DNA from: Branchiostoma floridae
Taxonomy: Eukaryota; Chordata; Leptocardii; Amphioxiformes; Branchiostomatidae
Length of the DNA stretch: 64,000 nt
NCBI RefSeq assembly: GCF_000003815.2
Contig: NC_049983.1
Span: forward strand, 13,514,000 to 13,577,999
Direction of reading: 5' to 3'
The notes under the pieces are model-generated. The model saw only the letters and a list, made by a program, of their open reading frames with translations, ran no database searches and was not told where the DNA came from. Positions 18,169 through 46,400 of the stretch are shown one piece after another. Within the stretch, counting starts at the first letter, position 1. Every line of letters begins with the position of its first letter. The translations under genes were made by a program, and so were the position numbers.

Positions 18169-18208
18169 CTGACACCAAGGAGGTTCCATATAACCTCCTT
18201 GCTGACAC
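18169..18208. mobile_element. 26-bp palindromic mini-element with 7-bp target duplication (copy 1)
   Basis: A perfect palindrome at 18176-18201 (10-bp arms beginning CAAGGAGGTT, 6-base loop) is flanked on both sides by the identical 7-mer CTGACAC (18169-18175 and 18202-18208). The same termini with a different 7-bp flanking repeat recur at 35704 and 45621, which is the evidence that this is an inserted unit and not a chance hairpin. Confidence 0.75.
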
Positions 18209-20651
18209 TGACAAATGAGGGTGAAAGCAAGAAGATGCCTCCTGTAATGAGTGGTGACATTTGGTAGGTCATTCCTTGAGAGGTGATACAATAAATCTTT
18301 AAGGAATATTGAATATACCTGTTTGTTGTAGACTGAGTCTTCCTGACCAACAAAGGGGCTCATGGGTGCAACTAAGATGAACCTTAGCTGCATTGGTAAA
18401 TTTAACAATTCAATGCTCATTTTCCTATTCAACTCATGCAAAATATATTCATATAATTATTAGCTCAAAACATTTCACTGCAGTTATGTAGTGGACATCA
18501 AAGGTTGAAATGAAATATGGCACACTGCACTACATGCTGAAGTGTTACACCCTCATCTTACCGCAACAAAAAAACACTAATCTCTGGATTGGTACTGAGA
18601 AACCGTATACTGTTGCTATTAACACTTGTACTCCACAAAGAGTTATGGTCTAAAATATCAAAAGCTCTAGTAGGGACCTTTAGCAGAAATCAATATTTTC
18701 CACATTAATCATTGTAAAGCTATCACTACAAGAAGCATGTACAGCCTGATATTTACTTGTGATCCGCCTGCACACCTGCACAGGGCACATAAACTCTGAC
18801 GAGGATTTTCAATTTATAGCCTGTAAAAAGACCTTGAAAACTTTAACTTCAAGGTCTCTATACTGAGCTATAAACTTACACTTACATGGGATGCATTTCT
18901 ATTCTCAAGTTTATCTAAGGGGATAGCCAAGGTCACCATAGGTCATAGTCCATCTTTCCATGCAACATAAATCTTTTCCCATAAATGATAAAGGCTATAT
19001 GGCTCTAGTCTACCTTGCAGCACTGAAGGACAGGAATGCAGTATGATATATAATAACACTGAGAATTTGTCTGAACTCAGACCAATGTCCTTAGCTGAAG
19101 TGGAGAACCTAAGAAGTGGCACAGGGTGTTACAGATACGGCAGTTTGAAGATCGCCCTATTTGATTGAAAGATGCAAATAATTTGTTGTGTAATTAGTTT
19201 ATAATTGTTTTGATAATCCATTGTAATGACCTGTTCACAATTACACAAGCCACTCCCTGCAGATATAAGTTTGCAGTTTACATATTAAACAGAATAAATA
19301 AATTGTGGCTTGCTAACAGCTCTTCTCATAAATCATTCTCACAGAAAAACAAAGGCATAACAGATCACATGACAAGTCATGACAGCTATCACATGGCAGA
19401 GTCTATAATGAACTGACTAGGTGAAAGGCTGACGTGTCCCCTAACTATGAACACTACAGTTAGTAACACAATGTTTTCATGTCAGTAGGATTTTGCACAT
19501 TCTGGTCACGTAGATCAAGCAAAATACAATAGCCATCCTTTCAAGATGATAAAAGTAGAGCAGGACAAGCTCACAGTTCTGTCGATGCTGACTACCATGA
19601 TGTACCTTTACCATAGCTCAAACTTGCAATAAAAAAAAAATTAAGCTGCTCGACTGATAACGTTACATATTTGCTCCCACAGCAAAGGAAACAATATCAA
19701 AATTCCTAAATTCCAGAGTTACAACATCACACAACCAAAGAGTGCTACGTGAGCATTGTTGACCTAGAGACAAGGACAGTCCAGAGGGACATCTACATGT
19801 ATCATCACAACACTGGCATTGTCCACAGCCAAGGTCAATTACGTGTATGAATCACAGCAAGAAACGTGACTAGGGAGCAAAGGAAATTTCAGCAGAAGTG
19901 TCTTTCTCGAAGATTGTGTCATACTCTGAGACAAATTATTTATGTAGTATACAAGGAGAAACTAAGTATCTACATGGTAAAATGTGCAAGTACCTTCTAA
20001 TGATATCATTTGCTCATTCATCAATTACATAATCCATTCAGCCATATATCATTATAATATAGGCATTGTTTGTCACAAAATTTTAGATAAGAAACAGATC
20101 AATTTTTTTCATATTTTGTCTTAAAATTTTCTAATCATCTTTACTCTACAGAGGCCCAAGGTCATTTGTGCATCCTTACCCATATAATACATCTGTGTAA
20201 CATGATTAATACTAACTTTTTTGCTGGCATCGTCCCAAGGGGTTTGTGCCCTCTATCAGCAACACTTCATCATGATCCATCAACTTGGACATTGTACCTG
20301 CCATACATCCTGCACTAACACATCAACTCAACAGCCACATCATCCCTTACTGGTAGTATGAGGAGTGATAGACATCCAAGCTTTTAGACTTGAGTTTACC
20401 TTGACATTCTTCAATGGACTAGGCTATGACATGTAAGATTGCCCTTGCCATCATGTGAGTAGTTTTTTCCGACAGTTCCAGCTAAACTTTGGTCCAAAAT
20501 CTATACCCTAAAGCAAATTGTCACTCAGAAAGGAGGCTTTCACCCTCATGTTCACAACTTTTGAAAGCTGTACCAAGTTGGCAAGTTTTGATCAGTGGAG
20601 TCCATGTTTGAAGAATACACATCATGTATTTGCCTGCACCCAAATGGGACT

Positions 20652-20871
20652 TAACGCTAGTTCACCTTTATTCGCAGGGTACCTTTATCCCTTGTATTTA
20701 ACTCCAGGATATTTCAGAATATCAAGTTGACGGACGGTGGTCTCAAACTTCATTATAAATGAGAAAAAATGCAATTTGAAACCACTGTCCATCCACGCCG
20801 TGTCCCTAAATATCCTGTTTTTAGGTACAACGGATATAGGTTACCACACGAATAAAGGTGAACTAGCGTTA
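20652..20871. mobile_element. MITE with TIRs of about 100 bp, possible TA target duplication
   Basis: The left end reads TAACGCTAGTTCACCTTTAT and the right end is its reverse complement. The arms can be followed inward for about 100 bases through further matching blocks (CAGGATATTT and GGTGGTCTCAAA versus CAGTGGTTTCAAA). The unit is almost entirely its two arms. The end geometry allows a TA target duplication, as in Tc1/mariner-type MITEs, but TA is part of the symmetric end and so is weak evidence. Confidence 0.65.
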
Positions 20872-23800
20872 CATACTTGAGGAAATATCTTTCCTCTTGC
20901 TACAATGACATGCACTGATGACACTTATGAGTTTATCTATCAAAAGAATGCAAGACAACTTTGAACTGAAGGCCACTATCTTCCATAGCATTAATCAAAA
21001 TAACTCTGTCTCGCTCTGCTTGGCTTCACGAACGAAGATCATCCATATTTGACTCATATTCAACCCAAAAAACAGTACCTACGAAAGGGTTTCAACATTC
21101 CAACACACTATAGATGAACTCACAATTTGTAAATGTTACGAAAAATATCAGTAGCTTTTCATCACTCTACTCATATATTATCTACTTTTCTATCAACATC
21201 AATTTTTATTTTTACTTAATAATTCATAATCCTCCAGCAAAACAACATGAACCAGCTGAGATTGAACAGCATTTCTTGCACATACCACTGCGACTAACTT
21301 TATTGAGCGTAACATAATTACATTGTTTAATAAGCCATTACAATGACTTCAATCCATGATTGATGCTATGGTATGTGTTAAGTGTGTGATGAACCTATAT
21401 TAATGCTCAAGTACAATAGCAGGGCCTCTAAATTTCAGCAAGATACTGGTAATAAAGCCTCCACTGCTATGGTATTACTCGTATATCAGCATTTTGGTGA
21501 CATAAACTTTCTGCAAGTGTTACACATTGGACGTGACATAAATCTAAATGGCTGAACAACTTGAGAATCTGAGAATTGCTTGGTCAACTTATTACATACA
21601 CTGGATGTGATTATGTGTGGTTAAAGTTGAATGTTCATAATATTGATCATATATATAGTGCTGTTCCCTTTACTCTACCAAACAATACCTTATTGGCTTA
21701 TACAGATATGTCCTCCTAGACCTCACCAGGGCATGGTTATCGATCTTTTTTGATGTCTTGAGATCCTTGTCCTGAAGAAATTTGCTGCCTTAAATCAATC
21801 ATGTGAATGCCTGTATCATCAGTCATAGCCCTCCAGATTAGCAGAACAGCGAAAGGGCGGAGATTTTTTAGCATTACGAATTCTCAATATCCGTGAGCTA
21901 TTCTCCATTTTCGTGTGCAAAATAAAGTTTTCATGTGAACTTTCCTAATCAGCATTTCTTCAAAGGCCCTTTGCATATTTTCTTATGGATATGTCTCCTG
22001 GATTTTATGGACTATCCCTGCAGCTTTCATTGGGACCCCTTTAGCTTTGATAATCAAACTCTCTGGCTTCTGATAGGCTGGAACTGATATAAACATTCCT
22101 AAGGGGTGCTGCCCTAGCTGGGGGAGTCAACTACACCTACATACCCACTCATATGAAATTAATGAGGGAAACAGGACAATCTGCAACTCATTCCCGCAAT
22201 TTTGTATTTTCTCGTTGAACATTTCAGCAAAAAGAATTAATACCAATACTTGCTATCAATACTAAACTTGTTTTCATTCTGAAAACTGAGAGACTAGCTG
22301 ATACATTCTTCACACCTGTTTCAAGTTTGTTTCAAAAAGTGACCATGCAACCAAAGCGCTCATCCCAATATTCTATCTTGGACTTGGAACACATGCAAAT
22401 CAGACTCACATCAGGAATCAGTTACATGTACATGCACCGCTCATCCAATTAAGACCAAGTTGAAAGGATTTTTGACCCTCTGTTTAAACTAATAGTATAA
22501 CTTGCTCGACCCACATTTGACACTAATGACATCCTACTCATTCTTTGGTCATTCTTACTACAATGATAGTGACAACTGCTGGTATCACTTTATAAGCTCT
22601 ATTTTAGCTCCCTACAGCTGTTATCGCTATCCTTGACTCGGAATAAACTTGACTTTGCCTTGGGGAAGGCCATGGCAGCATGCATGTTGTCAAGATAAAG
22701 GGCGACACCCGGTTACCTAGAATGTACATACAGTATGTGGGGGAGGTCAAGAAGAATAGGGAGGCAAAGGCTGTACAAGCGCCTTTGATGTTGCCTGTTT
22801 TCCTTCTCCATTGACAGCAGGAATTGTAACAATTCAGTTCTAGGTTATCCACACGGCTCAACATAGCTGCTACTGTCTATTTATACATGTATGTATAAAT
22901 GTATCAAGTTATCAGCTGACTTCCTGATACACTCTGGAGGAAGGGTGGCCATAAGTCTGGGTACACATCAGGGACCCATCTATTACTAAGCTGCTTTTCA
23001 ATTTCATGCCTTATCTATACACACAGTGACCTGTTTTTTCCAGTGTACAGCAATCCAACATGGAGTTTTGCTGCTAAGGTGAAATAAAAATCCAGACCAC
23101 CAAAGGGAAATTTATAGACCAAGATTTTCAATTCTGGAAATCATCACACTGCACCTTGGATAATAGAGGTAGACATTAATAATGTAGATGTTTCTAGTTT
23201 TCTGTTGTATAGGAATGTCCATATGGTTTTCATTGTTATGCATGTAGTTCTACACACTGTACAAAATACACTGTAAATGGGAGGGCACCATTTCATCACA
23301 TGAAACCCAAACCTCCAGAAGTGCCCTCCCTGCCCCCTCTACTCATGTTTACAGCAGGTTGCTAAAGCTGGCTACAAGGCCCATAGGTGACATAAAGGGT
23401 CAATTGAGGCCATCTGAGAGGTTTGCAGTAGTGCTGAGGTATAGGCAGGGTAGTGCTAATGACATTTTCATCATCATAAGCTTTCAACAATATGTGTGTG
23501 TTCTTTTATTCCAGCATCATTTATTATTTGTACAGTTAATGTTACTTTTGCATGGTTCATGGCATTTATAAGCACTGATTGGCTTCTGACAGAAGAAGAA
23601 TAAAAAGAAGACAAACACACCAGCAAAAATATATATTAAAATAATACATAAAAAATATATCTTTATATTCTATTCTAAAGTCTATGACCACAGGAATATG
23701 TGCGGATAATGTGCCCTTTTCTGTTTCCCTTACAATGAATTGACTCCTATATATTCTATACCACTATCATTGTATCCTAATTATAAGCATATAAGGTTTG

Positions 23801-25280
23801 CATGATAAATCTGGGTAACCTCTCAAGTATACCTGTGCATTTGAGCCCAATAATTTGTCTCCAACACAGCCAGAGAGGTATTCCCATCTGTGCCATATGG
23901 GCCCACAGCCAAGTTCAAGAGTGCCACCAAAGTCATCAATCTTGCATGGGGACATGAGACGAAAATTAGGTGCAACCAATTTTCCAATATCTAAATCACC
24001 AGCGAGTGAGCAGACAGCTAATGTCACGTGACATCGATTTGAGTGTTCATAAACTTCTCTCTAGCCTTTCAAAGCAGGGTTGCTGGAGCATTCAACGTTA
24101 AGATGGCTTTGAAAAGGTCATATTTTATATTCAATACCTTCTGATATTTCAGTTAGATTTGGACTTTAATTGACCTCAGAAGAATGTGAGGTAGGCCATG
24201 TGTAATTTTTGGTTTATAAGCTCTGTTGGCAGTCCTTGGTGGTCTACAGTCTAAAACATACACATTTGTGTGTAAGACATGATACCTGTCAAAATAAAAA
24301 CGAACCAATGGATTAAACTTTTTCAGAAAGGCAACAAACATTTAAACTCATACACCTGTCACAGCTCTTTGATTAACGTTATATGTCAAGTAACTAGTTC
24401 AGCAAAAAGCAAAGTTTGTATTGGTAGATAACATAAGGTTGTTATCAAACCCTACAGCGTTGTATTATTCCATTGACCAAAATGCGGATACACTGCACAA
24501 ATTACATTCACAGAAAATATCTAACATTAAATCATTCCTAGTTTGTTTCAAAACATTGTGCGAGGAAATTTGGAAAGTGAAACAAGCAGAAATTTGATAC
24601 TACTTAATCCTTTAATGTGGACAGTAATGATTTCTGTAAATAGGTCACATTATGCAACATGTAGGTTGGCTTGCCAATGCAATGGATTAGGTGACGTTCT
24701 GACAATATCCAACTATGACTAGAATCATACATTGACTAAATCAGGCTAAAGATACATGTACTGTAAAAATTGTTAGTCTTGTTGTCTCATGAACAGATCA
24801 TCTAGTCATGACATAGCAGCTACCCACATGACAGATGTCCTGTTGATGGTGAGGGTTTAATTCAATCCATACTAGCAGGCTCTGGTAATGTAAACATTCG
24901 GCAACCAGACAAATATTTGATGGGCAAAGACTGATGTTGGCTCAGTGCAGGGTCAGTCTGGAATTCTGGAACACCAGTGCCAACTTAACTTACTCAAGCA
25001 AAGGGGATGACATTCAGATTTGATGTAAACTGAAGAGTAAATGTGCCATCCCTTCCCTTGTCCTACATTTGCTAAGTTTTACTTTTAGATATGTGAGGTA
25101 AAGGAACAAGATATTCTTGTGAAATATAGTAACAGGTCATTTTTTCGATAAGTTATAATATGCTATAATAGTATCATCATCCCTTAATTGATATGATTTG
25201 CATGATAAAATATTACATGAAACATGAACATGGTAATGCTAATAGAAAGCCATCATGTCGAATGACTGAGATGACAATTT

Positions 25281-25324
25281 TAAACCAATGATCATGTTCC
25301 TTTAAACCAATGATCATGTTCCTT
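25281..25324. repeat. 22-bp unit in two tandem copies
   Basis: Two perfect copies of a unit starting TAAACCAATGATCATG. A recent local duplication with no other context. Confidence 0.85.
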
Positions 25325-26674
25325 TATTGATATGTGGTACTTATCATATTTCATACAAAATGGATTAGGCATTACAGATGATAACTACTTTGGATATGCT
25401 ACACAGAGAAGTAGACAACTTCATCCAATATTTATGCAACAGATTATCTTAGTAATTGTGATTGACAGAGATGTATGCCTTCTATACAACATTCTAAACA
25501 TATCTCTGAACCCTCTGGCATAGCACAAGACTTGGAAGCATATCAAGTATGCAAAGGAAGCTGGGGTTAGGATTGTTGTTCAAATCATATCCCACACAGA
25601 CAGAAAAGGCAAAACTACCTACCACAATATTATTATCCTAGGCTTAGTAAAAAAAGGATGTCTTACAATTTAAATTCAAACAACTATGTATAAGACCTGT
25701 TAATTATCACTAACGACGTAAAATATCTAGAAAACAGAGCAAGATGTAAATCTCCCATCCCTCCCCCACCTGGAATGGGCTGACCCATCCTAGTACCAAA
25801 AAGCAGTATTACAGAAAACCATTACTTTGATACTAGACACTTAGGCTTTATATTGAATATCCTGATAAATATGTTTTTAAAATCAATAGAATTCCCCAAT
25901 TAGTCTCCACAATTCCCAGATAACCATCTGACTATTTCTTTCTCGGCATATCCTTGTAGTTTCAAATGTCTGATTAATAATTCTGCTTTGTTATACTTTC
26001 AATTTGTCTCTTCAATCTTTTCTTGTATCGTCCCTTGTGTACGTCGGAATTGGGGCATTGCATTTCAAATTCAAACCACAGTTGCTGCCTGAATCAATAA
26101 AATTTTGCTAACCCTCATTACAACATGATACAGGTTATTGGGTGTGCTGCCATATGGTAAGTTAAGGGGTCAGAAGAAATAGACATCACTGGGTCAGGTC
26201 TGACTAGACTGCAGTATAGAAATGTTTTTGGTTTTAGAATACATAAGGTGCTGTATGGGATGCGAAAGGCAACCATTTGCCTCCACTTTTGGTAAAGTAA
26301 TAAGGAAAGACGGTCCATATAATATGATGTTTTCTTTTTTTCTGAATTTACTTTACTGTTCAACCTAGGCAGCTTTTCTTCAGATTTCTGGGACATTCTT
26401 TTATTGTTTTAATTTTGCACAAGTTGCTTGAGTCTATTGCAGCTTTATTCATAAAGATTGCCATTGGGTTAAAGTTGATTTTTCAGGAGCCTTGTGTGGT
26501 GTGGAAGCAGAAAGATCACTTTGGCAGCCTTCCTTGTTTGTGGACTGCTGATGCCATAACCTTGGAAACTCTGTACTGTGATCCATCCAATATTCCCCGC
26601 CAAGAAACCCGCCACGCAATATGGTCTACAGACACTACTTTCATTCACTACTGCAGACACTACAGTGTGTAGAT

Positions 26675-26894
26675 ACTGTAAATGCAGAAGTGTTCGCTGT
26701 GGATTAATGTTCGCGGTTTTCGTGGTGACCACTTCACCACGGAGAACTTTAAACCACTGCGAACATTTTTCTATAATGGTATAGACTGCAGTTTTAAGTT
26801 CGCGGTGTTGCCGCGAACTTAAAACCACCACGAAAAGCCCCTTTTCCCGCTACCACGAAATTAAATCCCCCGCAAACTTAAATGCATTTACAGT
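26675..26894. mobile_element. MITE with ACTGTAAATGC termini and central perfect hairpin
   Basis: Both ends carry ACTGTAAATGC in inverted orientation, followed by related GTTCGC/GTTTGC sequence. The interior has repeated GTTCGCGG motifs and, at 26791-26825, a perfect 15-bp stem with a 5-base loop. There is no coding capacity. Short palindromic elements with this terminus are common in marine invertebrate genomes (general recollection). The superfamily is unknown because no clear target duplication is visible. Confidence 0.6.
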
Positions 26895-27950
26895 TCCCCC
26901 TCATTATCTCCACTCTTTCTTGATCTTTGGTACTGTCCCTAGCAAGTCACAGTGAGACAGATTAGGACTCAGTTGTAGGAGAAGAGGTGGCTACCAGTAC
27001 CAGGTATTTCACTTTCACTGTAGCCTAACTAGCATAACTTCTAAAACACCCCTGTTGCGCAAGTGGTCTGTTCCAAAGTTAGGTCAGTACTATAGGGAGA
27101 TGGATGACACCATACTGTGGCAGGAGTCACCCGTAATTTATGGCCAATGCATTGGAATATTCCCCACTGCCATTATGAAAGCAGAGAAGAATGCAAAGCA
27201 AGTTGTCTGTCCCAGTAGGGGAGCTCCAAAGGCCCATGCTTTTATATGATTGATGACAAACCTATTCTAGTCTGAACAGCAGCATACAAAATATGGAGCT
27301 CTGATGCCTTGTCTGAGAAAGCCACTATTCCAAGTTCAAGACACATCTGGGAAAATACACCAAGGTCAACCAAAATAAACAGCCTTCTGGCATCAAATAT
27401 CATACAAGGAGTTTTCAGTTTGTCATCACCTCAAAAACACATAAACTTCCTCAAGTTCCTGCACATACCAGTAGGGCAACCTGAAGTATTCTGGTAAACT
27501 TGAACGCCCTTGAACACAGTGAATGGATGTAGCAAGAGAATGTGTTAGGTAACAAAAAATGCATTCAAGGAAGCTGATACAGATGTCAGGGTACCTTGAA
27601 ATTCAACACGTAATTGTAAAGAGGTTTTGACATCTGTCTCAACAGTGAAATGGCCATCTACTTTCCCTTGGAGCATTTTGTGGGTCTACATAGAATAACC
27701 TTGAGTCAGTACTGCCCAGTCGTTTTTTCATTATCACCAGGAGCTTGACAAGCCCATCAATAGCTGCATGTGCATGTACTTTTTATTGACCTGAAAATTT
27801 AGGTATAAACATAAAGCAGAAATGCTGCACTTGTTGATTCAATGATTGTCCTGTCATTACCTTTATGGCCAAATATGGGTCATGATTTCGACTCTAACAT
27901 GGTAGATCATCTATCTTATGTTCCTTCATTAATGTTTTAAATACTTAGCC

Positions 27951-28020
27951 TGGGTATCAGGCCCCCAACCCGATCTCACAAGATAGACATTTTTGAGATC
28001 GGGCTGGGGTCTGGTATCAT
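27951..28020. repeat. Imperfect inverted repeat, arms of about 26 bp
   Basis: The left arm, 27953-27978, ends CCCGATCTCA; the right arm, 27994-28018, begins TGAGATCGGG. The arms differ at a few positions and enclose a 15-base loop. The left end, TAGCCTGGGTATCAGG, resembles the end of the foldback at 47862-47977 (TAGCCTGAGTACC), so it may be a truncated relative. Confidence 0.55.
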
Positions 28021-28619
28021 ACAGCAAAAAAGGTACCGTATTGAATACTTCATCTGAAACAAAAGTGAAGGCCATACAAATGAGGCATGACAAATGAATT
28101 AGTCTTGGAAAAGCCTCTTAACACAAGAAGGTGTAAAGGGCCATCAGCAAAACAATCCTTATTTGTCATGCTCTCTTGAACAAACTCCTGAGAAAACCAC
28201 TAACAAAACTGGTGACATGCATGACAAATAACACAGATTTAAGGATCACAAGTTAGTGCTTGACTAAGTCTCCTAGGGTTGTACTGAGTGTTGATCTATC
28301 TTCTATTTTACCTCATCGTGCTGATAAGGGGCAATTCAGCAGTTGTGGAAACTTTACCAGAAGCCATAAGAGTGGGGAACCTTAAAAATGCTCCATTAAT
28401 TGGCAATATTCTTGTATTGGCTGGTCTTTCATTAGCTTACTTTGCACTTAAGAATTCTCATTTACACTACAGCACATATAACTCAACCATCTAAAATGTT
28501 CTTTTGTAAACTCAATACTGGCTGTAACAAAGATTCTATATTTGATATGTAAATACAAATTATTCAGACAGCCACAGAATATGGTGATGGTAGGATTGCT
28601 AATAGAGCAATCGTAGGGA

Positions 28620-29350
28620 ATTTCGCTGACGGAAACGACCCTTGACCTCACTGAGCGACATCCGCCAGCTAGGTCGGCCGGGCTCGCATTTTGCTTATCC
28701 TTTCGTTCAAAAATTCTGGAGTTTAGTTCTTATCAAGAGCTTCTACCCAGTGCACAGCGTGTCTGAACCACTGAGGCACACGATTCCGCCAGTAGACGAT
28801 GTGGGACCGCTGGATGGCTCACGGAATCGGCCGATAAAGCGCATCACCACGAAGGACGAGCTGTCCGAACACCACGCCATGGCCAGGCGCGCCATCCAGC
28901 CACTTTCGACAGCCAGTAACTCGCTCTACCTGGGGCTCCGAAACATCACGTCACTGAAACTCTGTCTCAGACAACCTTGCAGATGCTACGAAGGACTTGC
29001 CCTCTCTATTAGGGGACGTACAGTCCAACTGGAGGCCAAACGGTGACCGCCCCCCACCCCTACAGTTCCACCGAATCTTCTCGAATTCTCGCGCCCTTCC
29101 CGTTCTCGCGAGACGTTCGTGATTTCCCGTGACAATCATGGTCCCATCAGCGGCGCGGCAGCTACGTACATGAGCGGCACTTCCTTCTCTGCGTTTCTTC
29201 TGTTCACCTTCGACAACACTAGGAAACCAGCTCCAGCGGCGTGCTGAAGACCCTCAGGACCCCTCACTTCGCAGTACTAAGTTAGACTCACCGCGTCGGC
29301 GCACCTGTTTCCGGCCCGAGTCTACGCTGTTCGACAGTGCCCAGCGGCGT
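28620..29350 (+). other. CpG-rich island with an unrecognised 134-codon ORF
   Basis: This block is much richer in G, C and CpG than the roughly 28 kb on its left. It contains a plus-strand open frame at 28642-29046 (ATG to TGA, 134 codons) with many Arg, Ser and Leu residues, no signal peptide, no clear membrane segment and no motif I recognise. An overlapping minus-strand frame (28951-29139) is probably a shadow. The island could be an alternative internal promoter or first exon, an exon of an unrecognised gene, or part of a mobile element. I do not assign a function. Confidence 0.3.
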
Positions 29351-33298: not shown

Positions 33299-33808
33299 AG
33301 GATTCATATTGTGCACTTAGTTGTTGACTGCATGAAAGTCACTGTACTTTTTGTTGTCGTGTCAATAAATCTTCTGTGTGTGCTTCTGCCTTCAAGTGAT
33401 GCAGAACTGATGATCAACAGCTACATGTTAATTTGACATCTCAGTTTGGTGTCCCAAAGCTCCTACAACCCCAAAGCTCCTACAACCTCAGGTCCACCTG
33501 GACATCCTCATTGCCCTATGATACTGAAATGATGGGTTCAATCAACCTCCATCAGCTGCCATCTTGGACATCAGAATGACCACTCTTCAAATAAATAAAA
33601 ATTGGCTCTTTCTTAGATAGGTGCTGAGGGGACTACAGAATGAAGCGTAAATCATCTGAATACGATATTGAATCTTTTGTGTGACAGAAACAGATGGTCA
33701 ATGTGAAAATCACACACCACTTTCACCTTGATCTTATCAGACCCTAGGTGTGAAGTGTGCACCCCTTAGGCAGAATTTACACCTGCTGTGTACGTCTCAA
33801 GTACATAC

Positions 33809-34465: not shown

Positions 34466-34519
34466 CGTGGTCCGATCAAGCTGGAGGTATTCCCGCGCCG
34501 GGCATGGCAGTCCGTTAGG
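34466..34519 (-). promoter_or_regulatory. ERC 5' leader with a 9-codon upstream ORF
   Basis: On the minus strand a good 3' splice site (pyrimidine run then CAG) ends at 34520, so the leader segment of this exon probably runs 34519-34466 and the gene has at least one further untranslated exon upstream. Within the leader, ATG 34505 opens an ORF of nine codons ending with TGA at 34476, out of frame with the main ATG 34465 and only ten bases before it. Such an uORF could lower translation of the main frame; that is inference. Confidence 0.5.
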
Positions 34520-35703
34520 CTGAAGGAGACAAGATACCGGAGAATTTCCCTAACCAAACCACCATTGTTCGACTGCGATTGCGGTCCTCAAAATGGCCTT
34601 TCGTTGAAGCTGGGCGAAACCATTCGGTCAGGGAGAGTGGCATTTGTTTACATTCTTACAAAAGCAACATACTAAGCAAATAATACAAGTGGTCTTCACC
34701 CTGATATTACAAAAATCTATTTCAAACGATATAATTAATAAAGCTACCATTATATCTTTATAGAAATGAACAGCGGTGACTAAATTTGGGATTCAAAAAT
34801 GATACGGCCCCTACAGTATATGCATTCTCTGCATGTGTAATTGATTTGCGGAAGCCAGTTTTCTACTTCCGGCCCCGTTCTCGATCTATGATCTCTGACT
34901 CTCTGAGCAACAAACGAAATCGCAGCACAGCCCTGAAGCATACATCCTGGGCGAGTATTATCCCTGTGAATTGAATAGAAAAGAAAGTTTCAAAAACCTT
35001 TTGCTCATCCTTAGTCCTTAGACATGCTATCAAATGTTACACTCGTTAATTATTTGCGACAAAGTATTTGCATCCTTGACCTCATCCCAGAAGGCAGAAG
35101 CTCGCTGCTGTCACTGACTGAAGACAATCGATATTTTCCAGGGGCAAAACGGGTGAATTTTTGCGCTTCCTTCTTCCCTTGCTGGAAAAGATAGATGGGT
35201 TTTGAGTGATTTCTTTTTTCCTGCGCGCTCTATTGTTGCTGATTGTTGCTTGAGTGCACTTCTCATTTTTCATTTCAATGCGGGAATGTTATTCAGCGAA
35301 GTCCAGTGTTGTTAAACGGCAAGCAAGGAAATGAATTGCCATCATTGGAAATCACGTCAGGATGGTAATTCCCGCCAAAACTGAGTAAAGAAAGGGAACT
35401 GTTACATCATTTTACCGGTTAGTAATTCAAAGACAAGACCGTTGAGAAGTGAAATCCGGAAGCGTCGCCTGTTTGGATGAATCACGCGAAGGTGCACCGA
35501 TAGAGTTGCCTACGGCATTGTGGGAATGTTTGGCGGTAAATTTTGGTTTGTGACGGCTTTTGCTACAAATTCCAATAAATACATCATTGCATTAAGCGCT
35601 TGCGTTATCCACATTCAATATAAATTATTACGCACCGTACATTTTCCAAGGACACTTCGGAACTAAAAGCCGCTAAAGGGAAAGTTTGGTATATTTGTCG
35701 GAG
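34520..35703. promoter_or_regulatory. ERC upstream region with E2F-like motifs
   Basis: There is no coding exon here. It lies upstream of the ERC coding exon and probably holds its untranslated first exon and promoter. CpG content rises in places. Two E2F-like motifs in opposite orientation are visible: TTCCCGCCAAAA at about 35369-35380 and TTTGGCGGTAAA at about 35529-35540. No TATA box or start site can be fixed from the sequence. Confidence 0.3.
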
Positions 35704-35730
35704 CAAGGAGGTTATCCTCCTTGGTCGGAG
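35697..35730. mobile_element. 20-bp palindromic mini-element with 7-bp target duplication (copy 2)
   Basis: The palindrome at 35704-35723 (CAAGGAGG, loop TTAT, CCTCCTTG) is flanked on both sides by GTCGGAG (35697-35703 and 35724-35730). It is the shortest of the three copies and consists of little more than its two 8-bp ends. Confidence 0.75.
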
Positions 35731-36059
35731 GAAAACGGGCTGCGTTTGAATCGAAAGGATACTAATACATGTATGACAAGACATGACTGGAATCATGATT
35801 TCTCGACCTTTTTAAATTCGTTTTAGCCGATTCGTAACTAGCATCCATCAAGTGGAAGTAGTAGCTTCGCTACCCACTAGAAGACTTTCAACTTGAGCCT
35901 AGCTATTATAGTGACTGTTAAAGCTGAGCCAAGTTATCCTAGTAGCGCTTACTCCTCAAATTGACGAAAGCTTGCATTCAAACAGTTGCGATTTTCTTAC
36001 TGGCAACATGTAAGGTCAGTGAAGTTTGTGTTCTGTGTTCCATCAGATCTGGACGCGCG

Positions 36060-36480
36060 CCCGTTCCTCTTTTAAGCTATCTGTATCTGTATCTATATAG
36101 CCGGTATAACCGCCGTTCGGCGTAACACACCAAGCTGAACTACGGATTCAATAGTAAGTCATCCTCCTAACGCCCGGTCCCCAACGGCACTACCTTATGG
36201 GGCCCTGCTGTCCCAGGCCCTACCTACGGGTATTATGATTGTCGCCACAAACAAGCTGTCAACCAATCAGAGAACAGGCCTTCCTTGGGCTTCATTTTGT
36301 CGGAAGCTGTCTCGCAAAGGCCGCTGGGAAGCTATCAGCCAATCATGTTACGTATTACCATGACTTTGTTTGCTCACCATGCCAACGCCCGATCCCCAAC
36401 GGCTGACTGCCCATATAAGGGCAAGCTCATTAATATGTAATAAGTAGGGCGGGTAATACCGCCGGCAAAAGGGAAGGAAA
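36060..36480 (+). promoter_or_regulatory. Possible promoter block with CCAAT boxes
   Basis: Two forward CCAAT boxes (AACCAATCAG near 36262 and GCCAATCATG near 36339) precede a TATA-like CATATAAGG near 36412. The start of the block, with repeated CTGTATCT and the AGCCGGTATAACCGCC region, looks like a degraded repeat. If it is a promoter it would fire rightward, toward the possible exon at 36937, away from ERC. There is no direct evidence of transcription. Confidence 0.3.
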
Positions 36481-36520
36481 GCAGAGTACAGTCAGGAATA
36501 AATGACTGACGGTACTCTGC
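36480..36520. repeat. Hairpin with arms of about 15 bp
   Basis: GCAGAGTACAGTCAG is followed after about ten bases by CTGACGGTACTCTGC, giving a 15-bp stem with one mismatch. A second, shorter inverted repeat (GTAGTAA/TTACTAC) follows at about 36533-36557. It does not match a structured RNA that I recognise. Confidence 0.5.
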
Positions 36521-36936
36521 TGTAGGAGAATGTAGTAAGTAGTTCTTTACTACTACACCGGATAGATACCTTGGTATCCTTGTTACTAGTATTTGGAGAA
36601 CCCTCTGTTTGGCATTGAAAATGGTTGAATTTTCATATGGTTTATCAAGGGCTTATTATAATAACGTCCTTTTGCTTTATCAAGTGTAAGCTTACTTTAA
36701 GGGCCGGTAATTCTAAAGAATGAGTAACATCGCATTGACGCTACTTGCAGGTAGTTGCTGTTCTCATATAAGTTATGACGTTACTGTTGTGTCAAGTTAT
36801 CACAAAGGCGCCGGTGTGTAAAATAAACGTTTGTTGGCCATGGTGCTGCCTGGCGAAAGTTTGTGCTGTTGTTGTCATCTTTCCTTTTGATTGCATTGGG
36901 GATTATCATATACTTACTGTTGCTTTTTCCTGACAG

Positions 36937-37263
36937 GTGTGGTAAAGAAAATCCAGGCGCTTGGTCGGGTTGCGTGCAACGGGCGGACCGACCCGGTGGG
37001 GACTTCTCCAGAGTGGGCGTTTTGTTGGGCATTCGCTAAAAAGTTCGTGCGAGATACTAGCACATGGCCGAAGGCTGGTATGGCGGAACAGACTGTCAGA
37101 AGCTAAACAAAAAGTACAAGACGATAATGCACCGATATGATACTTTGACGACCACTTTGTTGACGATTCTACTCAAGATTTGTCTCTTGGGCAGTGTTTC
37201 AGTAGGTAGGTGTAGAGACCTTGAGCATTTTGAACCGTTAACCCTCACTGGACTCTCACAGTG
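36937..37263 (+). CDS. Possible 5' exon of an unrecognised gene
   Basis: A good acceptor (pyrimidine-rich, then CTGACAG) ends at 36936 and is followed by GC-richer sequence. The first usable ATG of a plus-strand frame is at 37064; the frame stays open for 66 codons to TGA at 37262, with a GTAGGT that could be a donor near 37204. The peptide starts MAEGWYGGTDCQKLNKKY and has a hydrophobic segment at about residues 31-47. I do not recognise it and found no later exon before HDAC11, which is on the other strand. It may equally be a non-coding transcript or chance. Confidence 0.22.
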
Positions 37264-39453
37264 ATTATCCAGAACAAAGAGGGATTTTGTACAACTAACG
37301 TTACATGTAAGATCTAACTACTGCAAACCTTTGATTCTCAGTGTTGAGTAGATGATAATAACGTTTCAGGCCACTTTTGGAAGTAAAGGTAGGTTTATTG
37401 GACAAACGCATGTCCTTTGGCAACATGTTACAGGAATATATCTACTGCAGATCAGAAACATTTGATGCTAACGCAGTACCTTATTGTATGCAGTCATAGA
37501 TAAACACCTACAGAGTGTCTGAGAAAAACAATTTCATACAGCCCATTAAACTGAATCTGGAATGTCAGTTAAACCATCTACAACACAGTAACGTTGACTT
37601 GGTCACAGACATGCCATATGTTGGATATGAAACGGTCATAATGTGACATGCACCATAAAGTTGAAATTGCATAAGTAATCTGAGCGTATCCAACAAGAAT
37701 GCATTTTTTTCCACTATAGAATTTTAACATTCAAGCACATTGACTACATCTTTATACAGTGAAGCCCTTTGCATATTAATTCAAATCAACTTAAAAATAT
37801 ATTTCTTATAACCATAAATAAAACACAATACTATTCCATTCAGTCCATTTCAGTCATTTTACACTATAATTTGAGTATAAAGCCTGGTGCTAGAGTCCAT
37901 TCCAAGACACCATGAGGGTTTTTAGGTGATATTTATAATTAGTCTGAATTATTTTGAATAAAAGAATATCTGAGCCACAATAATCAAATTATTTTCAAAA
38001 AATTGACTAAGAAAATACTCATTTATTTGATTTTCTTTGAATATTTTAGAAACATTTTGAAAGTAACTGTACAAAAATATCTTTATTTAGAATAATTGTG
38101 AAACCTCTCTGTGATTATTTCACATTTACAAAAAATGGTAAACCTGGCCAAATGGTTAAATTAGTTTATTGCCCCCATAAAAGTAAGCCCTATTGTTGCA
38201 TCTGTATATTTTTAGGTTTCACTGCTGGGCACCGGTGGATCCTTTGTGGTGGGCCATTGTTGCATGGCACCCAACCATACTTTGCAAGGATGTGTGAATT
38301 GCTATCTTCCCAGCCCACCGAACCATTTACAAAAAATGGTAGAAAATGGTAAATAATGGTAGAATGCTGTTATCATTATTTAGAAACCATTAGAAGTATC
38401 CAATTCCACAGCATGAATATTTCCAAAGTTTTACAGGACCAGGGAAATATTTATAAAGTTGAAACAGTGTTAAAAATATTTCTGAAGTATCAAATGTCCT
38501 AGACATATAATTACAAAACTTTATAATCAATTCTAAACAATGGCACCAAACATCCGCATGGTGTCTTGGAATGGACTCTACATGTCAAAGACTACCAATT
38601 CATTGGATAATGCTGGAATAGTAAGGAAAATATAATGCATAAGCTAATAATGCTTGAATTCAGTAATGGTAACAGAAGCAGTTGAATGCCAAGTAAAATC
38701 TTACATTGATCAACTTAAATGATACAAACCTTGAGGAAATGTTGATTTTCTTTAGATAAAAAAAATAAAAGAAACCCCCTTATAACAGTCATGGAGGACA
38801 GAAAGAAGGCAAAATCAAGGAATGGATCCAGCTCTATGGATTGAGTGCTACATGTAGAATGCTGTCACACTTCCACTCAACAGTAGCCAATACATGTAAA
38901 CAATACTAAAATTCTTATTTTGATTGTCTTGTCCAACAGCCACTTTCCTGTTTGTTGCATGACCAATACAAATTTGCTACAAAAAAAAAATAGGGAAAAG
39001 GCCAAGTACCTGCACCATTTAAGTGACAAAGAGAAAGCACCAACCTGATGAAATTATTTTTGGTAACAATACAATGACCATCATAAAAAAGACATACAGG
39101 TCATGCATACAGGTCATATGTTGTAAAGCTCATAATGCGGAATATTAGTAGCACTTATCCGTCTTATGTGTACTATTCATATCATGTATCACAGATACTT
39201 TACTTTACTCTGAGGTAAGGTAATTTCAAACAATATACACCACCAAGCAGACCGAAGTATATTGAAAGCTTATTCATCATCATCATCATCAAGCTTATTA
39301 GCCAGGGAAAATACAAGAGCATGTGGTATGTACTGGTACACTGCAGCATGAATCATTACAATATTGCATATTTACAGCTGCCTCTCAAACCCAACCCATT
39401 GCAAGGCTGAGAAAAGGGCCTTAAGGGTCAGCTTGCACCAGTGGCAGAGATGT
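37264..39453. other. Intergenic stretch, no gene recognised
   Basis: AT-rich sequence lying downstream of HDAC11. A motif ACAAAAAATGGTA recurs near 38128 and 38330, with several AATGGTA copies after it, and a short (ATC)n run lies near 39275-39290. I see no coding exon or RNA gene. Confidence 0.6.
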
Positions 39454-40177
39454 GTACATTTTGGCCCCGTTCATGATGCAAAAAATTAAATGGTTCTATC
39501 GGTTAGGCCTGGAAATCCGACAGCAAACGACAGGAAACAGTTTGCATTTTAAGTTCACGATGCAAACTTGCAAACAGTTTCAGTTCCCTGAAAAGGCAGG
39601 GTATTGCCTAATGCGACCTCTGAGGTTGTTGTGATCTTGCCCAAACTTGTACTTCTGTGTCAGATTATTGGTCTTTGATCGAAATTGAACCAATGTCTTA
39701 CTGAATTCGAAGCTGGGTTCTGTTATGACCTTGGAAAACATTGTGGTCCTGATATATGCAATGCTATGACATTTCCACTGGATCTCCTGACACATTCCTC
39801 TTGCGATATCAGGACTGCTGGCTCCTCAGTCGACCAAGAGGCGGCCTGATAATAAAAACGAGTTTTACGATTGAAAATGTGGCCGAAACACCCGAATAAC
39901 AGATTAAAAATTGTACTTTTCCTCCGTGGCGCCACCAAATATGAACGCACATGCCCAGATGTAGAAGTAACTAAAACGGATCGCACCGCTTTTGCATTCA
40001 TGATGCAAATCCGCAATTCCGGATAAGGAAGAAACTGTTTCAATACTACCTTGCGAGGAGGTACCGAAAAAACCGTTTCCTATCGCTTCAGATCCGTTGA
40101 TGACAAAACTTATCTGTTTCAGCTGGCCTAACCGATAGAACCGTTTCATTTTTTGCATCATGAATGGGGCCTTTGTA
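39454..40177. mobile_element. Non-autonomous TIR DNA transposon, about 720 bp
   Basis: Near-matching TIRs of about 50 bases mark the ends: on the left GGCCCCGTTCATGATGCAAA continuing to GGTTCTATCGGTTAGGCC, and the reverse complement on the right ending TGAATGGGGCC. The interior repeats the TGCATTCATGATGCAAA-like motif. Short overlapping frames inside carry no transposase signature. Flanks read TTT on both sides (ATTTT before, TTTG after), a possible 3-bp duplication. GGCC-type ends with a 3-bp duplication would suit a PIF/Harbinger relative, but this is not secure. Confidence 0.6.
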
Positions 40178-40457
40178 CATAAAACATACAAATGTACTTC
40201 CTCTATTACCACATACATATCAAATCTGAAAACATCACTTTCCTTTAGTAAATTCTATAGTGGGTTTGTCATTTTAAAAAGACAAAAAGCTGTCAAGACC
40301 TTACATACAAAATACAAGCTTACATGAACAGGTTTCAAAAATCACATTTAATTCAAATTTTGCATATTGAAACAGTTTGACACTTGTCTCATCAGAACAT
40401 AGTGTTTACATGCATGATCATCAGGTAGATCTTCATAAAAACTGTGAGATCAAACTC
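40178..40457 (-). other. HDAC11 downstream/3' UTR region
   Basis: Directly downstream of the HDAC11 stop codon on the minus strand. No canonical AATAAA close to the stop was identified, so the transcript end is unknown and could lie beyond the transposon at 39454-40177. Confidence 0.4.
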
Positions 40458-43400
40458 TCAGATCTCTGTCTCGACTGCTGCAGCTTGGTGTGAGATCAGA
40501 CCTTTTGCTATCAAGTTCTTGATGGAATCTGCGATGATCTGGGCTGTTCTCTTCTGGTACCCACCTGTAGATGGAAGTAGGACAAATAAGTATTGGAAAA
40601 TGAATGAAAAGCAGTAGTTTGTGTAACCTTTGCACATCTATCTGTAGTTGTTTAAAGCAATCCAGATACAAGATCCCATACCACTGCTATAAACATGTAA
40701 AATCCTCATTTTTGTAGTCCTTCCAATTACTGGCTCTATGTTTTCAAACCCCTAGTAGAAAACAAGGAAGGAATCATGCCCGTTACATGTCCTTGTGACT
40801 TAAACACGTACAAATATACTTACCCGAGGTAACCATGAGGATAGGGATTTGCCTGGGTCTGCCCTTTCCCCTAGCAAGCTCAAATACCAACTGATCTCTC
40901 TGAACAATACCCTGCAAAAAAAGACAATAAAAGACATACTTTTGAGTACATACACAACAGACTACACCTGCATAAAGACTGTACTTGCAGTTTAACTTCT
41001 CATAATGCCAATGCTGGTTCAATAAAAATTTAAGACGCCATCAACTTGTGCAAGTTAACAACATGTTGAGTACATAGACTGAAAGCTAGTAAATACCTCA
41101 GGTGATATAGACAGGGCTCCCAGTGGATCACCCTCTAGGACATCAGTACCTGCATTGTACACTATGATGTCTGGGTTAAACTCTTCCAGGGCTTTCTCAA
41201 GGTTTCTGTAATAACAAACATTTCACACTGTCACATGTCAACCGATACTAGAGAAGTTCATAGATAATATCATAAAAGGGTCTATCAAAGCAATCTCAAA
41301 CCTGAACAAAAATGCTCTTAATAGCCAAAAGGAATAAAAGAATTTTCAACACTTACATACACTAAAGAACTTTCTTTCAGGTCTAGTTTGTTGACATGTA
41401 GTTTGTTGGCATATTTAGGCACACTGTGACCATATAAGATCAAAATCATGTACCTCCTTACAAGATTATGACATTAATATGTACATGTGTGACTTGAGTG
41501 AGTGTGACTTACTTCCTAACAAGACTGAGGTAGCGATCATCTTCAGTGTAGGCCTGTAACTCTACCTTCCGTCTGATTGCACCTGAAACACATTGAAGGC
41601 ATCCATGTAACACTTACTCAAATCTTCCTGTAAGTACTTATTTCTGAAAACACTGCATTTCTTCCAGGAATCTTAAGTAATCTTGGCAACCTACCTTTTG
41701 CATAGCTGTCATGTGGATAGATGTACCTATTGTATACATCCATGATGTAAACTCTGCTGTCATTGATGAAGTCCCTTTCATGGCCGTTACCCTTTGATGA
41801 AGAGAAAGACATTGAAGTTAGTATATATGTCAGGGTAAAGATTGTGATCTGGTAGAATTACCAATTCTGCCAGTACAGATCCTAGTTGGAGTTTGTAGAA
41901 GGCATTCATAACTTTTAAACTTCATGTTTTAGATCAATGAAATGGAAGACCATCCTAATGCATTCATAGATCAGAGACAAACATATATATACAGATAAAA
42001 GAACAAGCCACGGAACATTTTACTTTGGTCCTTGGGCAATGATAAAACTACTGATGGGTAATAAAAATATGCCATGTTTTCAAATATACATTCTTAGGTT
42101 TATGTGTTGTCAGTTCATCCCTTTGTAATTTTTACTAACTTACTTCAACAATTACTCGCACTTACTACCAGGATTCCCACCTACAAATCTTCCCCATTGA
42201 CAAACTAGTACTTCTTAATGTTTCCCCAAACACATACTAGCTTTTTATGTGTCCCTGTTTGTAAATAGAAATGAAACATTTCCTTATACATTAGTGCATA
42301 ATGTGTCCCCAATCACTCACAATACTCCTTTATGTTTCCCTCTCTGCACACATCGATAAATGAATTTGAACTTTTCAACCATAAGTTAAGTTTTACTTCA
42401 CAGACCTACCTGATGGGCATCTAGATCTACAATCATGGCCTTGGAGATGCCTTCCATTCTCTCAAACAGAAACTGTTCTTGACAAAAGAGATTATACAAA
42501 CAATCATTATTAGAAAGACAGCCATTCATATTGGGACAAATAAATGAAAGGTATCCAAGCTATTGTTCCACACCAAAGATGAATATCAGTTTATTCGACT
42601 GAATATGTGATAGTGTACATTATGCACACTTATTGAAAATAGCATCCTCTCACCTTGATAGAGAGTGTGATGTCTGCATATGCACAGAACCCCCCTCCCC
42701 TCTCTGCAGAACAATGATGGAACCCACCACCTGGAAATAAAAGTGATATCATACCATGACCCTACAAAGTCACAGTTAATCATGTGATGTTGCACATAAA
42801 GAGACTACATTGCTTTCAATGATACAAGGAAATGAACAGGTGGAAAAATGCCTTGTAATGGCGCTTTAGTTCTGAGCGTTTTTCCCAGTTTTTGCAACTG
42901 CTGTAAGTTTTACTTACCAATGTTCAAAGCCCAGCCTCTTTCCGTAGCTAGCTTTCCTGCCTGCGTTAAAAATAAAAGTTGGAACAATCCTGGCTTTAAC
43001 CACTACAACAGTGACATCATGTGTCATGACTTCTTAAAACAGAGCTTTATTGCGCTTTTGTATGCTCTTGCTCTTATGCTTACCTGGTATATGTAGCACT
43101 ACTGTAACAGTAACTTTAAAACAGTATGTGGCTCTTCCCACATGCTGTCCTACATGAAAAATGTTGGATGATCTTTAGAAACAGGAAATGATGTTTTGTT
43201 AGAGTTTTCTCCAGTAGCACACATACCATAACTGTTCCCCCTGTCTGCAATCTCAGTGGTTTCAGCAGCTTTCTTTGCACAATGAAGTTTGGCAGCAAAG
43301 CAACAGGGGGCACTTCTGTGATGCCAGCCACAACCATACTCCACTGAAGAGGAAGAAGAATTCCAACTTACAATGTTACTCCCTGAATACATCTATGTCA

Positions 43401-46400
43401 TAAACATACACAGTAATAGTATTAAAAAGGCTTAACATAAGTTTTAACAGTTTTTTCACAGTATCAAAGCAACACAAGGATATGGAGTCTCATAACTTTT
43501 TGTGTAATTTACTGTACATATCATTGAAAAAAAAATGAAAATGTCAACTTATGAATTGACTTACCTTTTTTGATACACATATATTGATAAATGTATACTA
43601 GGATGTTCACTTTTTAACCCATGGTACCATTATACTATTTTTGTCTATGGCTATAAGGGACCGTACGGCATTTAGCGAGGGGGGAGGGCCGGTCGCCAGG
43701 GGGGGGAGGGCCAAGCAAAAAAATATTTTGCCAGGGGGAGGGCCTAGCAATTTTTTTTTTACTTGGGGGGAGGGCCAAGCAAAAAAAAATATCTTGGTCT
43801 GCCAGCAAAATATGTCCCTTAAAATCCAAGAAACGGCGTTTCAGAGGGTCAAGATTTCAAAATTTTTCTGGACCTCTGCAAGGGATCGCCCGAGGTTGGC
43901 GCTCGGGATACAGTGAAAATGCGAAAGGGAGGGGGCGGGGCTTATGCATGACGCCCTCGAAAACCTTCTTCACGTACAGAAATGTTATTAAACTCTAGAT
44001 TAGTCTGCCAGCAAAATTTACCCCTGTCTTATTGCCCACAAAATGTAAGAAATGGCGTTTCAGAGCTCGAGGGTAAATATTTGCAAATTTCTCTGGATCC
44101 CTTTTGACGTGACCGGCCTCGCGCCTTTGATGACCGACATCGTGATAATGTGTTTGGGGGGATTTAATTTTGTATTTCTAAATTGAAATGCTATTAAAGT
44201 TAGCTTTGTTTGTCAGCAAAATATCTCCTCAAACTGAAGGAAATAGCTTTTAAGAGGGTCAAGATTTCAAAATTCTCCCGGACCTACCTTGCGATTCTTC
44301 GTGCCTTTGGCGCCGAACATGGTGTTCGGAACGTCGTTCTCAAAAACTTGAAACCCTCGTATTTTTTTTTATAAAAATGTCATCTAACCAGCAAATTTTC
44401 CCATAAAAAAGCAATGCAGGAAATCGTGGCCCAAAAAGCGTGGCATTTCTAAAAGACCTCCTGCTAATCTGCGGTCTCACGCCCGCCGGCGGCTAGAGAG
44501 AGGCGACCGGTCTTACCCCGCCGTGGGAATCAGCGTCACGCGTCGGCGCCCCCCTCCCCACTACAGTTTTGGAAGTCTAATCGTGCTGTCGTTTTGGTTT
44601 TCATTTTTTTCCCCGATTTACCGTAAGTTATTACCACCACAGAACCAAGAAAAAGTCCAAAATATGTAAATTGAAAATAGTTTCCGTCAAGCCGCTCAGG
44701 CCCGCGAGCTTGCAATACGTAAATTTAGGGAGCGGGGCGCGCGCCGCTTCGTGGCGCAAATCTACTAGAAATCCAGGTACAAATGCTTTTAGGTGTTGTT
44801 TTAATATCAAAACAATGAAATAGCTTCTATAAAGCAAATATTTATGCCTCTATGAAGGAGATATTTATCCCTCTATTAAGCAGATATTTTGAGCCATTCT
44901 GTTTTCCTTTTTTTACTAGGGGTGAGAGATCTGCTTCTCGATGAAAATCATAAAAAAAGTATGACGCAAAGCACATTTCCAAATGCGGGAGCGCAGTGTT
45001 TTATCGGCGTCTTGAATATTTTTTTTCAAAGTTGATAGGAGGGGGGAGGGCCAAGCAAAAATATTTTGTCTTGGGGGGAGGGCCTAGCAAAAAAAAATTT
45101 ACCTGGGGGGAGGGCCATGCAAAAATTTTTTGACCCGACCCTCTGGCGACCGGCCCTCCCCCCTCACTAAACGCCGTACGGTCCCTAACACACTCACCTT
45201 GAGGCTGTTAAGGTACCCACTGCTATGTACCATCAGCAGGTCTTCCTCAGTGGCCTCTACAGGAGTCACTACATCATCATCCTTCAGTAAGCCGCTCTCT
45301 GCAATAATACCAATGTGTATTATAATATAGCAATAATTTCATTTGCTTAAAGACCTTGTCTAGCTTGGTCAAATAAATGATGATGTAATGCTTAACTTAA
45401 ATGAAATTCTCCATTGCCATATCTGTGCATGGTTCATTTACAGTTACACCTTTAAATACTTTTTGATGTGCACTTCTTGATAATTCTTGAATCCAAATGG
45501 TGGTCTGGTCACTGTTAGTCCATTGGGCCAGAGGATAGGTTGGTACTGCCCAGGACCCAGGTCGTGCCGATATGTAATTTGGGATCCTGACCCAAGGACT
45601 ATTAGTTTGTTTACTATCATCAAGGAGGTTGAAAAAGAATTTTTTTCAACCTCCTTGCTATCATAATACAGTGTTGAATTACCTTTCAGATACCTGAAGA
45701 CTTTACCCCATTTACCAGAGTCGAAGGGATGCAGCTTTTCCAAACCCAGGAAACCAATATTGTAGTCAGAGCTGTAGACGATGGGCCACTTGGACTGGGG
45801 GATATCTTCATGTAGTCTGGTACTGTGGGAAAAGTGGTCAGACAGTTAAGCAGCTTTAGAAGATATATTTGAACATGTTTGATATTGTCATTATGCCATA
45901 TACAAATGTACAATATAATCTTAATGCTGATTATAAAGAAAATAAACAAGACCATAGCATGTCTATAAGACAAAAGGTCCAAAAACTGGAAATTCTTCTG
46001 CAGTACCAAGGTCACATGCCAGGAGGGCCAAACTTGACCTTGACTTTCATCTTTCCAACTCCTACTCATATACCAAATGTCATTACAATCCATCCAGAGA
46101 TTCTAATGTTATGCTAACCAGAAATATCTGTAAAGACAAACACATACACAGGCAGACAGGCACACAAACAGACAGACACACTAAAAACAACATTTTTCAT
46201 GGAGGAAATAAAGTCACCAAATTATGAATCAAACTAAAACAAACAAACTGACAAAGATACAGTTGGATCTGTCAATATTCAGATACAGATCTACAAATCA
46301 CCAGGCCATTAGGTGATTGTTTTTTTCTCTGTTGCCATCAAAGTTCAAAGTCTAGTGTATGGATGATGTTTTAACATTTTTCGCTTCTGTTTTCTGAGGA

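Follow-up and report, generated by a model that had tools for sequence, protein, structure and literature searches.

Short palindromes of the Branchiostoma floridae genome as probable excision scars of P-superfamily transposons

The P transposase of Drosophila is described as cutting 17 nt inside the terminal inverted repeat, or TIR (PMC7776569; PMC10983969), and the junctions left by excision of fly P elements are reported to consist of the target-site duplication, an arm of the repeat, in some cases an insert, a second arm and the other copy of the duplication (PMC2895639). Excision junctions of the P superfamily, their mechanism, and 7-bp duplications (those of Galileo) are already known. 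The subject of this analysis is a 64,000-nt window of the lancelet Branchiostoma floridae (C5:13514000-13577999; genome of 513,431,437 bp in 431 contigs), in which three tiny palindromes each lie within their own exact 7-bp direct repeat. These palindromes, and a large number like them throughout the genome, are very probably excision scars of P-superfamily transposons whose ends were rejoined, and not mobile mini-elements.

Palindromes of the window and of the genome

The three palindromes, given here in coordinates of the window and without assigned strand, share their ends and differ in their middles; the division into arms is a putative one. The palindrome at 18176-18201 can be read as CAAGGAGGTT + CC + ATATAACCTCCTTG, with arms of about 10 and 14 nt and two extra nucleotides, and lies between CTGACAC at 18169-18175 and an exact copy at 18202-18208. 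That at 35704-35723 can be read as CAAGGAGGTTAT + CCTCCTTG, with arms of about 12 and 8 nt, flanked by GTCGGAG at 35697-35703 and 35724-35730, and that at 45621-45657 as CAAGGAGGTTGAAAAAGAAT + T + TTTTTCAACCTCCTTG, with arms of about 20 and 16 nt, flanked by CTATCAT at 45614-45620 and 45658-45664. The 20-nt arm of this third scar is contained in a longer end at C4:10733098, CAAGGAGGTTGAAAAAGAATAGGAGTCGGCTCATAAT..., which continues into the terminal sequence of parent elements (GGAGTCGGCTCATAAT). The first-pass annotation had located the three palindromes and their repeats exactly, and was also right that a chance origin is unlikely: the window holds three matches to the pattern, whereas none of 100 dinucleotide shuffles reached three (shuffle mean 0). 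Scans of the window for tRNA genes and Rfam families found none.

Genome-wide, the pattern CAAGGAGG(0-30)CCTCCTTG occurs 2,051 times and its reversed control 5 times, and a sister type, CAAGGAGC(0-30)GCTCCTTG, occurs 684 times with 2 in the reversed control. Most of the CAAGGAGG-type units (1,929 of 2,051) are no longer than 40 bp; gaps of 25-30 nt (units of 41-46 bp) account for 122 matches against 2 in the control, about 26 of them being copies of one scar as judged from match length (11 copies of that length were read), and gaps of 31-60 nt (47-76 bp) give 117 against 7.

Flanks of the CAAGGAGG type were read at 53 sites, namely the three of the window and 50 among the matches listed, all on C1. 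The duplication is an exact 7 bp at 33 sites and has one mismatch at 12, two mismatches at 2 and three or more at 6, one of these 6 (L002) having instead an exact duplication of 8 bp; none of the 53 has a duplication of 5 or 6 bp. Mispaired flanks match exactly in 0.07% of cases and with one mismatch in 1.0%. At 21 sister-type sites with flanks, the duplication is an exact 7 bp in 16, an exact 8 bp in one and a 7-mer with one mismatch in two. The duplications tend towards G/A-T-N-N-N-A-C/G, roughly GTNNNAC. A scan blind to the ends, which required arms of at least 7 bp and an exact flanking repeat of 7 or 8 bp and from which five loci were excluded as overlapping, returned 35 matches, all starting with CAAGGA or CAAAGA, against none in three block-shuffled passes; this shows specificity only weakly because most of the scanned loci had been chosen for containing CAAGGAGG. 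Scar-like palindromes that have other ends (CAAAGACG and CAAGGACG) and are each flanked by an exact repeat of 7 or 8 bp stand at L045:69-93 and L036:3336-3355, which suggests further subfamilies.

Parent elements and one target in three states

Longer relatives with the same ends and a transposase, for which the first-pass annotation had advised a search, were found in the form of two large elements with P-type frames. The C11 element (17071456-17080139) is 8,684 bp long with a perfect 38-bp TIR, CAAGGAGGTTGAATAAGGGAAAGGAGTCGGCTCATAAT, and the duplication AAGTCAT; the C19 element (10308832-10317273) is 8,442 bp long with a perfect 31-bp TIR, CAAGGAGCTTTTATCAGGAGGAGAGAGCAAG, and the duplication CTCTAAC. 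The genome contains 40 matches to a 300-bp end of the C11 element, and of seven loci read with this type of end, five hold elements of 1,213-1,220 bp with different exact 7-bp duplications and two have no usable partner. The exact 23-nt end of the C19 type is present in 48 copies, which form 15 pairs and leave 18 unpaired; 13 of the pairs are spaced at 1,187-1,190 bp, one at 4,111 bp, and one is the C19 element itself. All ten C19-type pairs that were read have exact 7-bp duplications, each different. In total, all 18 correctly paired parent elements that were read have an exact 7-bp duplication, the same length as in the scars; the tally leaves out a wrong pairing of L020:183 with L020:8140, which showed no duplication, the true left end lying 726 bp further left. 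The shorter parent-type elements are probably non-autonomous, judging from their size. The first loci examined yielded no long element with both ends; they gave only a duplicated scar, in L047, and pairs at chance level. About 42 kb before the window, at C5:13467869-13471979, lies an element of 4,111 bp that has C19-type ends and is flanked by the exact duplication ACTAGAT.

One target was found in three states by way of a 46-bp unit at L036. A 286-bp query around this unit gave 33 matches: 29 that span it all, three that cover half, and one diverged match about 57 bp shorter. The scar state is read at L119-L121 as CTAAAAG-CAAGGAGGTTAACCTCCTTG-CTAAAAG. At the same place, the shorter match, C9:12515034-12515242, represents the empty state, in which CTAAAAG stands once and the palindrome is missing, and the full state (C6:18436542-18438121) holds an element of 1,580 bp by coordinates with CTAAAAG on both sides, two of the half matches being the two sides of this single C6 copy and the third lying on C7. 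The inverted repeats of the C6 element are identical across all 99 bp compared (a TIR of at least 99 bp), and the sequence of the scar state is the two ends of this element joined at TTAA. A comparison among the loci then examined had found no empty site spanning a scar.

The 46-bp unit itself is recurrent: 12 further copies of it or of a 55-bp variant were read, and all 13 of 13 share the same 60-bp flanks apart from small changes. Because the flanks are the same, the unit must have been copied with its host repeat, and it appears to be one ancestral scar amplified inside that repeat; its interpretation as a templated junction at a single site is ruled out by the additional copies and their common flanks. 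The duplicated piece of the L036 unit is already present beside the full element and so predates the last excision. Also beside the C6 full element, on the reverse strand, L134 shows an arm preceding the element together with a flank copy (CAAGGAGGTTAAAGAAG then GACTAAAAG), a pattern that would result if one end was cut and repaired by flank copying while the element stayed.

Arm lengths and transposase frames

The arms of the scars correspond to TIR prefixes that have been cut short, and in each of two subfamilies their length has a sharp upper bound. In the C19 type, 50 scars among the matches listed (of 684) were compared with the 31-bp C19 repeat. The longest arm matches 10-19 of the 31 nt with a mode of 17, being 16 or 17 nt in 28 scars, 18 or 19 nt in 6 and shorter in 16, and 19 nt is the maximum; three 19-nt arms overlap the other arm by 2 nt, whereas three 18-nt arms are blunt and need all 18. 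Exactly two TIR prefixes make up 29 of these 50 scars (14 blunt, 15 overlapping), and the other 21 contain other nucleotides or come from variant ends. The TTGAAAGAGG type is the subfamily whose intact 1.2-kb members bear the 38-bp repeat CAAGGAGGTTGAAAGAGGGAAAGG... (L086-L088), and its set comprises every scar in which one arm matches 18 nt or more of that repeat (98 entries representing 85 places). Here the longest match is 18 nt at 13 places, 19 at 33, 20 at 13, 21 at 22, 22 at 3 and 28 at one; it is thus at most 21 of 38 nt at 81 of the 85, with a mode of 19, and 50 of the 85 are two prefixes (28 blunt, 22 overlapping). At 24 places starting with CAAGGAGGTTGAATA, the arms match up to 15-21 of the 38 nt of the C11 repeat, where the pattern itself requires 15 and some places belong to other subfamilies. 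The limit is therefore about 17-18 of 31 nt in the C19 type versus about 19-21 of 38 nt in the TTGAAAGAGG type.

Single sites show more elaborate junctions: in L047 a second copy of the left flank directly follows an arm of 15-17 nt, and in L001 the junction includes a piece of its own left flank. A 29-bp unit, CAAGGAGGTTGAAAGAGGGAACCTCCTTG, stands at many places among the TTGAAAGAGG-type scars and may be either a preferred join or a copied scar.

A profile search with PF21787, the P-type RNase H domain, found three loci (10 candidates scored), two of which lie in elements with matched ends; these are the C11 and C19 elements, where the domain is above its cut-off. Matches to two companion domains were found in the C11 element only: PF21789, the C-terminal RNase H domain, above its cut-off in a downstream frame (expectation value E 3e-7), and PF21788, the GTP-binding insertion, in two pieces in separate downstream frames (E 6e-4 and 4e-4), neither of which reaches the curated cut-off. 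The C11 and C19 elements both have a match to PF12560, the importin-binding domain of RAG1, that stands N-terminally before the RNase H domain, in C11 within a separate overlapping frame. The THAP domain had no match at E up to 0.01 in the five frames scanned, other exons lying outside that scan, and PF12560 was seen instead. The frames of the two elements may be linked to N-RAG-TP and to the origin of the RAG1 N terminus.

Both large elements (L019, C19:10307000-10316999; L020, C11:17072000-17081999) also contain a second frame of about 350 amino acids in the opposite, convergent orientation. This second open reading frame (ORF2) has no match among solved structures up to E 1. Three other copies of the second frame (L040 on C1, L041 on C3, L042 on C7) are more than 97% identical in long aligned segments and 56% identical to that of L020; they lie within a larger repeat, with flanks common to all and 68-bp tandem repeats adjoining a CAAGGAGGTTAAACAAAGTG end. 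Clusters of short or stop-bearing matches to the second frame are present on C6 at 14.97-15.01 Mb and 27.0-27.9 Mb.

Mechanism, rival explanations and known systems

The evidence that the palindromes are excision scars consists of the duplications, the parents, the arm limits and the three states at one target. The transposase of these elements probably made the cuts, and end joining probably closed them. An element with CAAGGAGG or CAAGGAGC ends would insert and duplicate a 7-bp target, as the duplications show. Its transposase would then cut one strand at the edge of the element and the other at a depth of about 17 nt in one subfamily or about 19-21 nt in another, as suggested by the arm lengths together with the P-type domains found in the parents, and with such a staggered cut the flanks of the donor would keep single-stranded 3′ tails made of the first nucleotides of the element. 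Host end joining, to which the junctions point, would trim and join these tails, often at microhomology and sometimes with extra nucleotides, to yield the order duplication, arm, reverse-complement arm, duplication. The scar would be palindromic because both tails bear the same inverted-repeat sequence, and variable in its middle and length because trimming differs; being inert, it would spread only through copying of the surrounding DNA. The first-pass annotation had offered remnants of incomplete excision of larger elements as one of two possibilities, and the intact parents, the arms ending well inside the TIR and the empty, full and scar series bear this out; its remark that no described family fits does not hold, as the P superfamily does fit, and with it the Galileo branch, which makes 7-bp duplications.

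Among the matches listed, 40 of 50 CAAGGAGC-type scars have at least 14 nt of the C19 repeat, and the 684 matches of this type compare with 15 pairs and 18 unpaired exact 23-nt ends. The resulting ratio of more than 10:1 is an estimate for the CAAGGAGC type, because both counts use exact patterns. A broader claim, for which the chances are about even, is that a few thousand P-type excisions in the germ line, sealed by end joining, survive in this genome as a fossil archive left by a distinct P-superfamily clade that has a transposase with a RAG1-like N terminus and a second convergent gene, and that comprises subfamilies cutting about 17 or about 19-21 nt deep as recorded in the steps of arm length. 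As part of this claim, the excess of scars over recognisable parents would mean that in most cases the break left by excision in this lineage was sealed by end joining, and that copying back of the element was the less usual outcome.

Several points weigh against the interpretation as excision scars. The excision event itself is inferred, and the three-state series concerns one target only, of which the empty C9 copy is diverged (69%). Five of the 53 CAAGGAGG-type sites have neither an 8-bp duplication nor a 7-bp one with up to two mismatches, and 2 of the 21 sister-type sites have no matching duplication. Arms depart from the 17 nt of the fly, being 19-21 nt in one subfamily and 22 nt (L125) and 26 nt (L131) at single sites, so either the cuts vary among subfamilies or a few scars are internal deletions. 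Identical junctions recur at separate sites (L032 and L075; CAAGGAGGTTGAAAGAGGGAACCTCCTTG many times), as would also be expected of minimal mobile units. One-armed scars, although predicted by the model, are not established: after 17 unpaired CAAGGAGGTT ends the 7-mer recurred within 8-44 bp with at most one mismatch in 5 cases, versus 4 with the reversed 7-mer as a control (exactly in 2 versus 1), the best candidate being L038:1005 with a 19-nt arm between two exact copies of GACACAT. Finally, ORF1 has no sequence match to any solved structure at E up to 1, and ORF2 has no Pfam match up to E 10.

The other possibility offered by the first-pass annotation, that the palindromes are minimal transposons moved in trans by a transposase making 7-bp duplications, would account for the individual duplications at most sites read, for identical short units that occur more than once, each time with a different duplication (L032 and L075; L027 and L053), and for the many occurrences of one 29-bp unit. 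However, most middles differ, and many units are simply two truncated TIR prefixes, in the proportions given above for the two subfamilies. Short identical units with different duplications can be explained by recurrent joining, and end joining in the fly likewise yields recurrent identical junctions, with up to 14 isolates of one in Table 1 of PMC2895639. The sole long unit in many copies, that of L036, has the same flanks in 13 of 13, and another copy of its host repeat holds a full element at the same place, which refutes independent mobility for the CTAAAAG site; moreover, the 16-bp unit of L015 would seem to leave no room for two transposase-bound ends. Movement in trans is accordingly judged highly improbable.

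Scars might instead have been left by a transposase from outside the P superfamily that likewise cuts well inside its ends. Consistent with this are the absence of THAP from the frames scanned, the absence of any sequence match of ORF1 to a solved structure at E up to 1, and the N-terminal PF12560 match, given that a RAG1 N-terminal (Chapa) domain is described from Chapaev-type transposons (PMC4411706); against it, the order of PF21787, the sub-threshold pieces of PF21788, and PF21789 is the catalytic arrangement of P-type transposases, and the 17-nt arm limit of one subfamily together with the 7-bp duplications fits members of the P superfamily, leaving this origin very improbable. Palindromes selected as hairpins or regulatory sites, with flanking repeats made by replication slippage, have in their favour that they can fold back on themselves, and no other support was found. 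Slippage agrees poorly with 53 sites of which 33 have repeats of exactly 7 bp, one of 8 bp and none of 5 or 6 bp; the ends are common to intact transposons, and the three-state series, with its copy that has one 7-mer and no palindrome, weighs against selection, so this explanation is extremely improbable.

If the palindromes are excision scars of P-superfamily transposons, what is notable about them is their scale, their excess over parents, their subfamily-specific arm lengths and the RAG1-like N-terminal match of the parents; a limited search of the open-access literature turned up no earlier description of P-type excision scars from any lancelet. With scars in the thousands, the genome may preserve a fossil record of how DNA breaks were repaired in the germ line of an animal, and it would serve as a catalogue of numerous double-strand breaks whose starting ends are known. 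Microhomology, inserts and trimming in germ-line end joining could be measured from them across evolutionary time without experiment, and the depth of transposase cutting could be read from arm-length steps in sequence alone. The scars also account for a class of short interspersed palindromes that might be mistaken for new mini-transposons or regulatory hairpins.

The fly P excision products described in PMC2895639 resemble the lancelet scars in their flanking target duplication, their partial inverted-repeat arms and their range of microhomology, blunt, inserted-nucleotide and recurrent identical junctions. As described there, they arose in the laboratory at a single reporter site, and their duplications are 8 bp and their tails 17 nt long. 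The lancelet scars, by contrast, number about 2,700 by pattern matching, belong to two end types spread across a single genome, and have 7-bp duplications and arms limited to 17-19 or 19-21 nt. Miniature inverted-repeat transposable elements (MITEs) are similarly short, dispersed inverted-repeat elements with target duplications, and the 1.2-kb elements are MITE-like by size; the tiny palindromes, unlike MITEs, are probably not mobile themselves on present evidence. The RAG1 N-terminal-like region of a transposon protein, as in Aplysia N-RAG-TP (PMC8355894) and the Chapa-domain transposons (PMC4411706), has a possible counterpart in the lancelet elements, likened here by description only, in which the RAG1-like match precedes a P-type RNase H domain. 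Galileo, a P-superfamily element of Drosophila, is described in PMC2775673 and PMC4168063 as having a P-type transposase, many non-autonomous copies, and duplications of 7 bp (sometimes 8 bp) with the palindromic preference GTANTAC, comparable to the approximate GTNNNAC of the lancelet; the comparison of targets is one of duplication length and preference only. Galileo is also described there as having long, internally repetitive TIRs and a THAP domain, in contrast to the 31- and 38-bp TIRs, RAG1-like N-terminal match and second ORF of the large lancelet elements and the TIR of at least 99 bp of the C6 element.

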